DNA of 6,204 nucleotides from Armatimonadota bacterium (GTDB lineage: Bacteria > Sysuimicrobiota > Sysuimicrobiia > Sysuimicrobiales > JACQTN01), in assembly GCA_016210785.1 (NCBI GenBank), contig JACQTN010000406.1, forward strand, positions 1 through 6,204, given 5' to 3'. Every line of letters begins with the position of its first letter. The first letter of the stretch is position 1. Position numbers and translations under genes: made by a program. The notes under the pieces are model-generated. The model did not search any database, was not told where the DNA came from, and saw only the letters and a list, made by a program, of their open reading frames with translations. Shown piece by piece: positions 3,036-6,204 of the stretch.

Positions 3036-3307
3036 TGCGAGGCTACCTCGCCTACTTGCACGCCGCGCACTATCGACCCGCGTCCATCCGGCGCCGGCTC
3101 TACAGTCTGAGTTCACTGTGCGATTACCTCGTCGAGCAGGCCGAGGTCCTGGTCCGCAACCCGGTGCGCAAGCTGACCGTGCCGAAGCGACCGCGGCACC
3201 TGCCCACGTTCCTGGAGGCTGAGGGCCACCAGGAGATCACCTCCACCAGAATCTACGACCCTGTCGTCCTCGATGACATGAAGACCGCCCTGTTGCAGCA
3301 TCCACTC
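3032..3307 (+). pseudogene. Tyrosine recombinase/integrase with catalytic core deleted
   Basis: The frame runs from after a TGA at 3017-3019, with a TTG at 3056 as the first possible start. It reads VLRGYLAYL, then YRPASIRRRLYSLSSLCDYL and RNPVRKLTVPKR, the typical N-terminal SAM-like DNA-binding domain of XerC/D-type recombinases, ending in LPTFLEAE, where the catalytic domain normally begins. The sequence then jumps directly to GHQEITSTRIYDPV and MKTALLQHPL, the end of the catalytic domain with the last His and the tyrosine nucleophile (TAC at 3254-3256). Some 120-150 residues with the catalytic Arg, Lys and HxxR motif are gone in frame, so recombination is impossible; DNA binding could in principle survive. 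The frame reads on past 3307 without a stop into the next ORF, so the native stop is also lost. It abuts the inverted CcdA-like piece at about 3030. Confidence 0.7.
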
Positions 3308-3431
3308 AAGCCGCGACACCTCACCGCTGGGAGCCCAACGAATAGGGGGACTGAAAGGCGCCACGGCGGAAACGCGTACAGAAGCAATTCGGTGTCGGTC
3401 ACACACGCGGCGGTGAATGTGAATACTCCAC

Positions 3432-3442: not shown

Positions 3443-3793
3443 ATGGTAAAGGGTTCGCGCAAGAAGTCCAGCCAGCGAGGGCAACCCGCACGGGTGCGCC
3501 GATTGCCGCCCCCGCGGGACCCGACGGAGTTGCGTGGGCATGTGCACTGCCCAGGGTGCGGGCATGAGCTGCGGCCGCTTCGGGTGTCCAACGGTCAAAC
3601 ATCCGCACGTCCCTCGGGTTGTGATCTGCGCAAAATGACCGTCACGTGGCGGTGCGCACCTACATGTCGGGCTGGCCGGTCATGCGCCGGATGCGTCTGC
3701 CGGGACCGTCGCCCGCCACGCTACCGCCTCACGATGAGGCGGCCCTCCATGCCGCGCTCCCGGTGCCCCTCGATGTCGCAGATAGTGGTGTAG
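3443..3793 (+). CDS. Small basic zinc-ribbon protein, hypothetical; 3' end doubtful
   Basis: An ATG with an ideal Shine-Dalgarno opens a 116-codon frame. Residues 1-25 are very basic (KGSRKKSSQRGQ and so on), followed by PRDPTELRGHVHCPGCGHEL with a CPGC knuckle at residues 36-39. Further Cys pairs appear later, but the last 73 bases overlap the convergent cupredoxin gene and have Arg/Pro/Ser composition, so the real protein may end earlier. A one-base shift near 3564-3570 would give CGRFGCP...PRVVICAK ending at TGA 3636-3638, which looks at least as protein-like. The gene may thus be frameshifted, or one indel may be an assembly error. A nucleic-acid-binding or metal-binding role is only a guess from charge and cysteines. 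Confidence 0.4.
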   Translation: MVKGSRKKSSQRGQPARVRRLPPPRDPTELRGHVHCPGCGHELRPLRVSNGQTSARPSGCDLRKMTVTWRCAPTCRAGRSCAGCVCRDRRPPRYRLTMRRPSMPRSRCPSMSQIVV

Positions 3794-4098
3794 GTGCCCT
3801 CACCGGGCAGGTCCACCTCGAAGTTGAGGGACTGCCCAGCGCGCACGTTGTCGGAGATCACGGTGAGGTCCTTGGACGAGCCCGGTCCGATGATGCCGAA
3901 GGTGTGCTGTCGGCGTCCCTCATTACGCAGGACGAACCGCACCCGGCCCGGCGTCACCGTAACCTCCTTGGGGTCGATCGCCCATTCCTTCAGGGACACT
4001 CTGACCTCCTGCACAGCCGGGGCAGCGATGACATGCAGCGCAGTGCCGATGAGAACAGCGGCAGCCAAGAGTCCGGATGTGTGAACACTCTTCCACAT
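3721..4098 (-). CDS. Exported type-1 copper cupredoxin (plastocyanin/halocyanin-like)
   Basis: The protein has 125 residues. Residues 1-28 form a signal peptide: a Lys near the start, the hydrophobic stretch SGLLAAAVLIGTALHVIA and a probable cleavage after APA (26-28). The mature domain of about 97 residues is a single cupredoxin with all four type-1 copper ligands: His65 in RRQHTFGI, then Cys107, His112 and Met117 in CDIEGHRERGM, the Cys-x4-His-x4-Met spacing of plastocyanin and halocyanin. It should be a periplasmic or cell-surface one-electron carrier. ATG 4098 is chosen because it begins the signal peptide and has AAAGGGG eight bases upstream; an earlier in-frame start at 4194 would add 32 residues that spoil the leader. 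It is the last gene of the minus-strand run, 111 bases after the small membrane protein. Its electron partner is not in the window. Confidence 0.9.
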   Translation of the reverse strand: MWKSVHTSGLLAAAVLIGTALHVIAAPAVQEVRVSLKEWAIDPKEVTVTPGRVRFVLRNEGRRQHTFGIIGPGSSKDLTVISDNVRAGQSLNFEVDLPGEGTYTTICDIEGHRERGMEGRLIVRR

Positions 4099-4209
4099 TT
4101 GGATCGCCCCTTTCGACCAGAGCGGTACGGCGCGTTGCGGATGGCGCATCGCCGTCGCCACGTCAGCCGCTCGTGGGACGCCGAGCCCCGGCAAACCGGA
4201 ATCTCCGCC

Positions 4210-4374
4210 CTACTCGGCGATCGGCCGACGGCCAGGATCGGCCCCAGCGAGCCAGCCCAGGTACACGACCCCAAGACTGAGGTTGAGCACCAACACCCCC
4301 ACGGCGACTGGGGCAAAGACCTTCAGCCGTGCCCGGATAGCGCGCCATAGCCCGCGCAGCACCCTCGCCACCAT
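4210..4374 (-). CDS. 54-residue single-span membrane protein
   Basis: From ATG 4374 the protein has a basic amphipathic N-terminus (MVARVLRGLWRAIRARLK), one membrane span (VFAPVAVGVLVLNLSLGVVYLGWLAG, residues 19-44) and a short polar tail. By the positive-inside rule the N-terminus faces the cytoplasm. It contains no Cys or His, so it is unlikely to bind metal itself. I do not recognise the family; it could be an accessory subunit or a membrane anchor. It lies 52 bases after the MerB-like gene and 111 before the cupredoxin, on the same strand. The start is uncertain: GTG at 4380, two codons earlier, is equally possible, and no strong Shine-Dalgarno is seen. Confidence 0.55.
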   Translation of the reverse strand: MVARVLRGLWRAIRARLKVFAPVAVGVLVLNLSLGVVYLGWLAGADPGRRPIAE

Positions 4375-4426
4375 AATCACACGCCCGCCACGAAGCCCTT
4401 TTACTCCTGCGTCGGGACGACGGTTT

Positions 4427-5299
4427 CTAGGACGACCAGAGATCCCGGGCTCTCCCTTGTTCGGCGCCACGAAATCGCGGATGGTCGGCCAGGTACCCCG
4501 TCAGGTGCTCTTCCGACCGGAAGAGGTTGTTGACCCCTCACCCACCCCCGCGCAGGTACATCGCGCCCTCAGGCTCGACGTCCGCCAGCCGGCCACAATT
4601 CACCACGATCGTGATGGGGTCGGCGCAGTGCGCGCACGCGTCGCGGAGGACCACCCGCCGGTCGTCGCAGGCGTGCCGGACCAGACCGGCGGCCCCGACC
4701 GCTTCCAGGGCCTCCAGCATGCGGGCCGTCATGCCAGGGGTCCTGGAGGACCGGCGCCGCCCCTCGCGCGCCCGGCGGTCCCGGAACTGTGGGTTCACGA
4801 GGAGCACGAAGTCAAAGAAACAATTGACGTTAAAGCGCTCCCCCGAATCCAGCACCACCTCATGGAAGTTGAAGCCAAGCCCCTCAAGAAATGACTCGTG
4901 ACCGGGCGCCAGCCGATACGCCCGCCGATCCCCGACGGTAATCCCCAGCCAGGCCAGCGCCTCCAGGCCATCCGCCACGGCATCGGCGGGCAGGCCGGTG
5001 GCAGGCGCGAGTCCAGAGGCGTCAACGGGTCGCCCGTCTCGCCCCTGGCGAAGAGCCGCCCGGGCGATCAGGCGCTCGTCGTTGGTCAGGATGTAGGTGT
5101 GGGGCGCCCACCGCACGGCGGCCTGCACCGCGGGGTCGTGCAGCAGGTGACCGGCGAGCCGGCGGCGGGTGGCGTCGGAGAAGGGCAGTCCGACCCGCGC
5201 CATCGCCTGCTCGACGTTTGTACACCGTAGTACGTCCTTCCAGTCCTCCAGGAGGATCTCGAGGACGCGTCGCTCGTCTGCGTTCAGTTGGTGTTCCAT
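4427..5299 (-). CDS. MerB-like (alkylmercury lyase family) protein, probable selenoprotein with in-frame TGA
   Basis: The product is 290 residues if TGA 4538-4540 is read as selenocysteine (position 254). Classical MerB splits C-Hg bonds in the cytoplasm with Cys96, Asp99, Cys117 and Cys159. Here NVNCFFDF gives Cys160-x2-Asp163 (Cys96/Asp99). AHCADPITIVV followed by ADVEPEG gives Cys225, matching MerB's SHCAATGAPVSLTV and QAVEPAG around Cys117. After the TGA the same frame continues GVNNLFRSEEHLTGYLADHP, aligning with MerB's C-C-H-V-H-F-F-A-S...W..H, so the TGA falls on Cys159. Residues 84-150 match MerB's winged-helix part (GRPV.. GLPADAVADGLEAL). Compared with MerB (about 212 residues) there is an N-terminal extension of about 80 residues and an insertion between Asp163 and Cys225. 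Codons after the TGA keep the G/C bias and the frame ends at TAG 4427-4429. Starts at 5299 (ATG) or 5305 (ATG) fit; neither has a clear Shine-Dalgarno. A mercury role is inferred from residues and from the MerF-like neighbour. Confidence 0.78.
4500..4534 (-). promoter_or_regulatory. Candidate bacterial SECIS element in the MerB-like mRNA
   Basis: Directly after the in-frame TGA the minus strand folds as CTCTTCC-GGTC-GGAAGAG (4525-4508): a perfect 7-bp stem with a GGUC tetraloop. A possible lower stem GTCA/TGAC (4534-4531 with 4503-4500) lies below an internal loop. The loop begins 19 bases after the TGA. Bacterial SECIS elements lie inside the coding region just after the UGA and present G (usually GGU/GU) in the apical loop for SelB. 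The E. coli fdhF element, as I recall it, also has a GGUC loop about 18 bases downstream. The extra bulged U of fdhF is not evident. The structure is seen directly; SelB recognition is inferred. Confidence 0.7.
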
Positions 5300-5336: not shown

Positions 5337-5528
5337 CTATCGCGCCCGCCGCTTGGCCGCGAGATAGGCGGCACCGACGACCAGAACCACCCCCGCCGCG
5401 ACCAGCAGGGTCGTCCCGGTCACGGCGCCAGAGATGATACTCGCGCCACCCGCCAGGAGAAGGACGGGGAGCGCACAGCACAGTGCCGCCACCACCAGGA
5501 TGCCGAGACTTGCGCCAAAATCCCGCAT
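5337..5528 (-). CDS. MerF-like small mercury transport protein
   Basis: The protein has 63 residues and two membrane spans: SLGILVVAALCCALPVLLLAG (residues 7-27), then TTLLVAAGVVLVVGAAYLAA, ending in the basic tail KRRAR. The vicinal pair Cys17-Cys18 inside the first helix followed by x2-Pro matches MerF's ALCCFTPVL, and the second helix ending in a basic tail matches MerF's TIYAIQRKRQ. MerF carries Hg(II) across the inner membrane by passing it between cysteine pairs. This protein lacks MerF's second, C-terminal Cys pair, so it would have to hand the metal directly to a partner. ATG 5528 is chosen because GGAGG lies six bases upstream (5535-5539); a GTG at 5549 is worse. It precedes the MerB-like gene by 37 bases and is probably co-transcribed with it. 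Confidence 0.7.
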   Translation of the reverse strand: MRDFGASLGILVVAALCCALPVLLLAGGASIISGAVTGTTLLVAAGVVLVVGAAYLAAKRRAR

Positions 5529-5534
5529 GGCCAG

Positions 5535-5539
5535 CCTCC
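5535..5539 (-). promoter_or_regulatory. Shine-Dalgarno GGAGG of the MerF-like gene
   Basis: GGAGG, part of a longer purine run, lies six bases before ATG 5528 and decides this start over GTG 5549. Confidence 0.75.
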
Positions 5540-5564
5540 CCCCAGGCACTATGATCCGCTCAGA

Positions 5565-6204
5565 TCACCCGCGTGTGGGAAGGCGGAAGAACCAGAGGCG
5601 GACGCCCCGGCCCCCCTCACGCCCGGTGCCCAGCGCAGCCAGCCAGGACCCGGCGAGCCTGACCAGCTGCACGCCGCCCTCGACGGTCCCCTGCCAGACC
5701 GTTCCCCCCTTGGCGAGGTCGCGGACCTCGAGGGCGCTGCCCACGGCCACGGCAGCCAGGCGACCGTCCGGTGCCAGCCCCATGGCGATGGGTTCCCGCT
5801 TGCTGCGCGTCTGGCAGAGTACCCGTCCCTGCGACGACCGCAGCGCCCCCTTCCGCTCCGTGGGCATCGCCGACGGTCACCCACTGCGCCCGGTCGTCCA
5901 TCTGCACCGGGGGCACCCCTCCCCGACGACCTGTTCCCAGACGGGCTTCGGGCGGCCGCGGGTGAAGAAAGCCACAAGCGCCTTGCCATCGGGCCGCTTC
6001 CACCCCAACGCGATGTGTCCGCCGTCCCCGGAGATCGCCACGGTGGCCATCATCTGGGAGGGACCGTAGGGCAGGCGGGCGAGACGCTTACCGTCCGCAG
6101 CCTGGAGCAGATGTACGGCGTCGGGCGTAGCGGCCGCCAGCACCCCGCCTTTCCGACTCATGGCCAGGGACAGGACGGTGTCATTGAGCCGCACCGTCCA
6201 CAGC
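5565..6204 (-). CDS. Beta-propeller (WD40/PQQ-like repeat) protein, partial, two compensating frameshifts
   Basis: The gene enters from the right edge without a start and ends at TGA 5565-5567. Repeating blades of about 40-45 residues are visible: VLSLAMSRKGGVLAAATPDA with VHLLQAADGK, then MATVAISGDGGHIALGWKRP, then IAMGLAPDGRLAAVAVGSAL with EVRDLAKGGTVW, a 'V-x-L-x-G-x-L-A-A-x-x-x-x-x-V-x-L' propeller pattern. The frame breaks twice. Near the G-run at 5916-5919 one G seems lost, and near the G5 at 5846-5850 one seems gained. Reading frame B between them gives VPPVQMDDRAQWVTVGDAHG, which joins both sides smoothly into ALRSSQGRVLCQ. Either these are homopolymer assembly errors or the gene is a young pseudogene. 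It ends 36 bases before the MerF-like gene on the same strand. Its ligand is unknown. Confidence 0.65.

Follow-up and report, generated by a model that had tools for sequence, protein, structure and literature searches.

We propose that the 6,204-nucleotide stretch analysed here (the window) encodes a protein with the fold of the organomercurial lyase MerB, in which an in-frame TGA at residue 254 is, judging from sequence comparisons, very likely decoded as selenocysteine (Sec). The protein is a predicted organomercurial lyase in which selenium replaces the third-ligand cysteine, Cys159 of MerB. Our high confidence in this description belongs mostly to the Sec reading, while the lyase role taken alone, with cleavage of the Hg–C bond as the predicted reaction, is a prediction that we consider probable. 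The observations behind it are the TGA itself, the conserved tail beyond it, the exchange of Cys and TGA among homologues, compensatory changes in a hairpin, the MerB fold of a structure model, a selD gene with its own TGA, and merA neighbours of relatives. The features of the gene are the following:

4427..5299, minus strand: MerB-like gene with the TGA read through, 290 residues from ATG to TAG
Domains of the protein: N-terminal extension; winged helix (about residues 70-142); MerB catalytic domain (about residues 145-290)
4820..4822, minus strand: codon of Cys160, putative equivalent of MerB Cys96; TGA in nine relatives
4811..4813, minus strand: codon of Asp163, putative equivalent of MerB Asp99
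4634..4636, minus strand: codon of Cys222, equivalent of MerB Cys117 by MerB2 alignment and column conservation
4538..4540, minus strand: in-frame TGA, residue 254, putative selenocysteine at the MerB Cys159 position
4430..4537, minus strand: 36-codon tail, residues 255-290, dropped by normal annotation
4508..4525, minus strand: SECIS-like hairpin, 7-bp stem, GGUC loop starting at nucleotide 23 counted from the U of UGA

The initial annotation had described a single in-frame TGA followed by 36 further codons of similar G+C bias and a TAG, and the frame and codon statistics agree: the TGA is the sole in-frame stop before the TAG, and the G+C contents of the three codon positions are 0.77/0.49/0.83 upstream of it vs. 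0.69/0.50/0.75 downstream. It had also foreseen truncation by normal annotation, and the window's own annotated ORF indeed ends at residue 253. Against ten Cys-bearing homologues selected for comparison, the tail shows 35-53% identity, a range like that of residues 1-253 (36-50%). Used as the sole query, it matched 15 of 118 homologues at E ≤ 1e-3, about 26 of the 118 extending that far.

In an alignment to MerB2, residue 254 pairs with the cysteine that the initial annotation had called Cys159, which bears out its placing of the TGA; thus the position of MerB Cys159 is occupied by a TGA. Cys222 pairs with the buried cysteine of MerB2. The earlier choice of Cys225 as the Cys117 equivalent was rejected, as column 225 is variable (66 Ser, 24 Cys and 17 Thr in 107 proteins). 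Cys160 and Asp163 were tentatively matched to MerB Cys96 and Asp99 by CxxD spacing and fold, the residue-level MerB alignment not reaching over that part. All three columns are strongly conserved among proteins with a residue there: Cys in 108 of 111 at column 160, Asp in 110 of 114 at column 163, and Cys in 105 of 106 at column 222.

Protein relatives were collected by a single-sequence search (36 homologues) and a profile search (118), each of which scored only the roughly 8,000 candidates sharing most words. The resulting alignment holds P0001 and 119 others, as protein records only, so that the stop codon of the 73 truncated others is unseen. The chain ends exactly at residue 253 in 74 of the 119 homologues, the window's own ORF among them, and 26 carry Cys at column 254. 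No homologue has any other residue there, 19 of the 119 being partial, shifted or out of frame at that column; one of these, P0119, stops after ‘FNVP’, one residue short of the Cys160 column. The initial annotation had staked its case on Cys or TGA in this column, and would have given way to some other residue in all relatives; only Cys or a chain end occurs, and nine further TGA genes with a conserved tail were found (see below). An in-frame UGA facing Cys in homologues, with conserved sequence past it, is the pattern of bacterial selenoproteins. A quick tree that leaves out column 254 requires five switches between Cys and a state comprising Sec or truncation. It has 94 rows, 8 of the 102 labelled ones having been excluded for their shortness, and in 66 of the 94 Sec was deduced from truncation. 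P0058 (403 aa) also ends at residue 253 and is annotated with a long N-terminal extension that starts with membrane-like segments.

Relatives were then read as DNA. Scanning named genomes yielded a single relative, L012, in a Chloroflexi bacterium MAG (genome G043). Follow-up searches matched 2 of 400 genomes in the phylum of G043 and 8 of 393 in its class; both sets were drawn from larger groups and include G043. Within the window's phylum, 3 of 43 genomes matched: the window's own (G000), G037 and G039. No relative was found in a plasmid collection or in two viral scans. Column 254 could be read in 13 genes, with TGA in ten and a Cys codon in three (G037, G039 and G582). The ten TGA genes come from nine genomes: the window's, G043, G116, G560, G673 (two copies), G704, G684, G618 and G626, the last gene being interrupted by a contig end. 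In all nine outside the window (eight genomes) the Cys160 column is TGA too, so that both presumed mercury ligands would be selenocysteine. The double-TGA relatives, in which a separate hairpin follows each TGA save for one site (see below), are L012 (4995-5849), L039, L063-L066 and L068-L070. G582, G037 and G039, for their part, have Cys at both columns. G037 and G039 were rejected as extra TGA genes, since both carry a Cys codon at 254; the TGA of G037 is its normal stop, and that of G039 is out of frame. A frameshift near codon 165 splits the Cys-type G039 relative (L015, about position 1995).

Putative hairpins of the kind expected of bacterial selenoproteins follow these UGAs. We required a GGUC or GUUC loop that starts at nucleotide 22-25, on a stem of 5 bp or more. 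The GGUC loop was taken from the window and L012 and then recurred at both G116 sites; GUUC was admitted only after G560 and G673 had been seen, so the rule was partly set post hoc. With both loops allowed, 18 of 19 UGA sites (columns 160 and 254) have the hairpin, the one failure being the 254 site of G673b, where the closing pair is A-C; with GGUC only, 16 of 19 pass, the column-254 sites of G560, G673a and G673b failing. Across 5,611 distinct TGA contexts there was only one match outside these UGA sites (about 5,590 others). At the Cys codon of the three Cys genes read the hairpin is absent, with stems of only 2-4 bp.

Covariation was assessed over nine distinct 254 sites, G704 and G684 being identical there and counted once. 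Of the cells in these, 96.8% are paired; C-G closes the stem in three sites, U-A in three and A-U in two, and in one the closing position is unpaired. The 3′ partner of this closing pair is the third, silent base of a Ser codon, so that a silent base tracks its partner. The percentage paired, the number of double-change cells (6) and the covariation score (0.282) were each matched by 0 of 500 shuffles, whereas 68 of 500 matched the count of pairs that show a double change (2) and 182 of 500 that of further pair types (5). Slid alignments scored 0.000-0.234, with the top value at -3 (0.234, 55.6% of cells paired, 7 double-change cells). When the peptide was held fixed, synonymous recoding produced the window hairpin in 1460 of 20000 trials, because of which it is weak as lone evidence; for L012 the corresponding counts were 1475 for the 254 site and only 5 for the 160 site (of 20000). 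Free-energy folding was not significant at the window site (z -1.31 and 0.04) or at two L012 sites (z -1.15 and -0.09), and the folds of the 48-nt window and of the L012 254 site prefer other pairings. Rfam gave no match in the window at E ≤ 1.

The initial annotation had tied its proposal to the presence of Sec machinery in the source genome, and this part held for selD only. The G000 bin (3.73 Mb, 616 contigs, 72.39% complete) contains, where a contig ends, the first half of selD (206 bits vs. a cut-off of 125), with a TGA within ‘CAG-U-ASK’, which we take to be the known Sec/Cys site of SelD. Not found in this 72%-complete bin were selB (best 52 bits), selA (best 20.7 bits) and tRNA-Sec (selC), the eight candidates listed for the last being other tRNAs. 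SelB occurs in 31 of the 43 genomes of the phylum; a match at E ≤ 1e-60 is absent in the other 12, including G000, G037 (72% complete) and G039 (94% complete). Beyond the phylum, sel genes were searched in G043 and G116, where SelB scores 344 and 356 bits, respectively, and SelA 559 and 575 bits; both genomes also carry a tRNA-Sec whose anticodon is TCA. Of the 43 phylum genomes compared, 14 besides the window's encode proteins with 60-70% identity to a glycosidase of the window contig, in keeping with its bin.

Could the TGA be something other than a Sec codon? If it were an ordinary stop, the product would be a 253-residue protein without the third ligand and the tail a relic. The missing SelA, SelB and tRNA-Sec in the incomplete bin would suit this, as would the gene callers' choice to end 74 of 119 homologues at residue 253. 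We nevertheless think it very improbable, given a tail as conserved as the body, Cys in all 26 relatives that have a residue at the column, hairpins that covary and are missing from the three Cys genes, and a SelD in G000 that carries its own TGA. Translation of UGA as Trp, Cys or Gly, whether by an altered code or by read-through of a stop, would agree with the failure to find SelB in the bin and seems even less probable: TGA terminates at least two other G000 genes, which led us to reject a bin-wide code change, neither Trp nor Gly occupies column 254 in the homologues examined, and SECIS-like hairpins lie downstream of the UGAs. Least credible of all is a fault in the window contig alone, be it an error of sequencing or assembly, a frameshift or a recent pseudogene. 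The bin is fragmented and the G039 relative frameshifted, but the same TGA codon in the same column of nine other genes from eight other genomes made us reject an error limited to the window.

For the window's protein, the structure model predicts the fold of MerB, i.e. a winged helix plus the catalytic domain. All 11 PDB matches at E ≤ 1e-3 are MerB, as are rows 1-8 in VIA-align. The Pfam MerB model (PF03243) scores 20.9 bits, below its gathering cut-off of 27, and a precomputed PF03243 domain is present in 4 of the 36 homologues from the single-sequence search. MerB holds mercury through Cys96 and Cys159, Asp99 handles protons and MerA receives the Hg(II), as described in the accessible parts of two papers (PMC4525700, PMC8261052). 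Compared with MerB (PF03243; PDB-codes: 3f0o, 3f2f, 5c17), the window protein shares the predicted fold, the alignment of residue 254 with the third-ligand cysteine and of Cys222 with the buried one, and, in three relatives, linkage to merA. It differs in the putative Sec that takes the place of Cys159 (in nine relatives, that of Cys96 as well), in an N-terminal extension of about 60 residues ahead of the winged helix, and in scores under the Pfam and NCBIfam cut-offs.

MerB-like selenoproteins have appeared in print before. In the parts of these papers open to us, one is listed in PMC9312934, an ‘Organic mercuric lyase MerB2’ stands among the predicted selenoproteins of PMC7435645, and SaoL (NF040728), an organometallic lyase by name, encoded in the SAO operon and bearing a CU motif, is predicted in PMC13188914. 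The initial annotation's statement that no Sec-containing organomercurial lyase has been characterised therefore needs qualification: going by the available portion of that literature, a MerB-like selenoprotein (SaoL) has been published, but as a prediction only. SaoL and the window protein are alike in being predicted MerB-like selenoproteins. The window protein, however, scores 11.3 bits on NF040728 (equivalog cut-off 140), its Sec is preceded by Gly whereas Cys precedes that of the CU motif as given in the accessible SaoL text, and the genes identified near this family are mer genes and ArsR genes. Among ten relatives scanned against NCBIfam, P0112 (22.7 bits) and P0121 (30.8 bits) matched SaoL far under the cut-off, and eight matched no model at E ≤ 0.01. 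By model score, Sec-preceding residue and neighbours, the TGA254 MerB-like family is distinct from SaoL.

A survey of MerB sequences, in its accessible text, screened for Cys96, Asp99, Cys117 and Cys159 and distinguished the variants 99Ser and 117alt (PMC8261052). These variants, as described there, resemble the present family in being MerB-like proteins off one signature residue. To such a screen, as far as its available description goes, a protein with Sec at 159 or 96 would appear truncated; the word selenocysteine is absent from its main text. PMC2398784, PMC5029168 and PMC12013277 contain no MerB, and only PMC2398784 mentions mercuric transport proteins. Among the papers listed by literature searches, which did not reach most subscription papers, none was seen to describe the TGA254 MerB-like family.

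The MerB-like gene is preceded by another gene on the same strand:

5337..5549, minus strand: small membrane-like protein of 70 codons that contains a Cys-Cys pair and stops 37 bases short of the MerB-like start

This small protein has no Pfam or NCBIfam match and is 49% identical to a counterpart lying between merA and a MerB domain on contig C235 of G000. That second mer locus (L037, 262-1517) comprises a C-terminal part of merA (260 bits), the Cys-Cys membrane protein and the MerB domain, a C-terminal part of the profile only (61.6 bits, profile positions 29-124). No merA was noticed among the ORFs of the window contig. Downstream of the MerB-like gene, at 3721-4098 (minus strand), lies a cupredoxin-like protein (PF13473, 35.6 bits), and a short membrane-like ORF (4210-4371) sits between the two. 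Two ORFs in different frames at 5565-6204 (minus strand) give the impression of pieces of one beta-propeller protein and have no Pfam match at E ≤ 0.01. At 3056-3330 (plus strand) there is a remnant that resembles the end of a tyrosine recombinase, which may point to past mobility of the region.

In three other genomes (G037, G039 and G116) merA lies in the same gene run as the relative. It is upstream of the Cys form in G037 and G039, and in G116 a full merA (502 bits, over the cut-off) and a thioredoxin-like gene (74.8 bits to ResA, under the cut-off) are found upstream of the double-TGA gene, together with an upstream gene that we take to be CcdA-like (no NCBIfam match). An ArsR-type regulator (79.3 bits, over the cut-off) accompanies the G116 gene, and ArsR homologues 52-54% identical to it are divergently oriented beside the double-TGA genes of G560 and both G673 copies (L080, L081, L082). 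The fetched 6.6-18 kb stretches of G560, G673, G704, G684, G618, G582, G626 and G043 contain no merA at E ≤ 1e-4, and those of G704, G684, G618, G582, G626 and G043 no such ArsR. In L012, a MerB with the usual Cys signature (3876-4721, plus strand; 96.6 bits, PF03243) is encoded two genes upstream of the double-TGA form.

Compared with a thiolate, a selenolate attacks more readily as a nucleophile and binds mercury more strongly. We hypothesize that the UGA would be translated as Sec by SelB and tRNA-Sec, that Cys160 and Sec254 would grip R-Hg(+), and that Asp163 would pass the proton that frees the hydrocarbon, leaving Hg(II) between sulfur and selenium to be handed to MerA. Such a cycle would be that of MerB with selenium at position 159, and in nine relatives both grips would be selenium. 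With selenium, capture would be expected to become faster and release slower, unless the metal is removed by MerA or by a further selenol or thiol.

The Sec could also be real and the substrate not methylmercury, the protein acting on another organometal or organometalloid, or as a mercury buffer instead of a lyase. We consider this unlikely. Similarity to SaoL rises in the double-Sec branch, with P0121 still well short of the cut-off, and merA was unmatched in the stretches fetched around the relatives in eight other genomes. Since L012 already provides a MerB and contig C235 a MerB domain, a further organomercurial lyase could be redundant. Against it stand the merA genes within the same run in G037, G039 and G116, the retention of the presumed catalytic positions, and MerB as the top structure matches. 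On the lyase reading, which we prefer, the sequences would represent a widespread unannotated family in which the mercury-gripping Cys of MerB is replaced by Sec, at one position in the window's protein and, probably, in dozens of the truncated relatives, and at both positions in a second lineage; this we find somewhat favoured by the evidence.

New here is a very probable MerB-like selenoprotein separate from SaoL, with predicted Sec on one or both of the mercury-ligand positions. If this is true, the enzyme of the double-Sec lineage would hold mercury between two seleniums. Selenium binds mercury more tightly than sulfur, which raises the question of how a demethylating enzyme with selenium ligands would release Hg(II); the natural Sec/Cys pairs, single and double, make it testable. 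Moreover, because annotation stops one residue early, these genes would escape surveys of methylmercury degradation in which Cys96, Asp99 and Cys159 serve as the screen, and the capacity of uncultured bacteria to break down methylmercury may therefore be under-counted.
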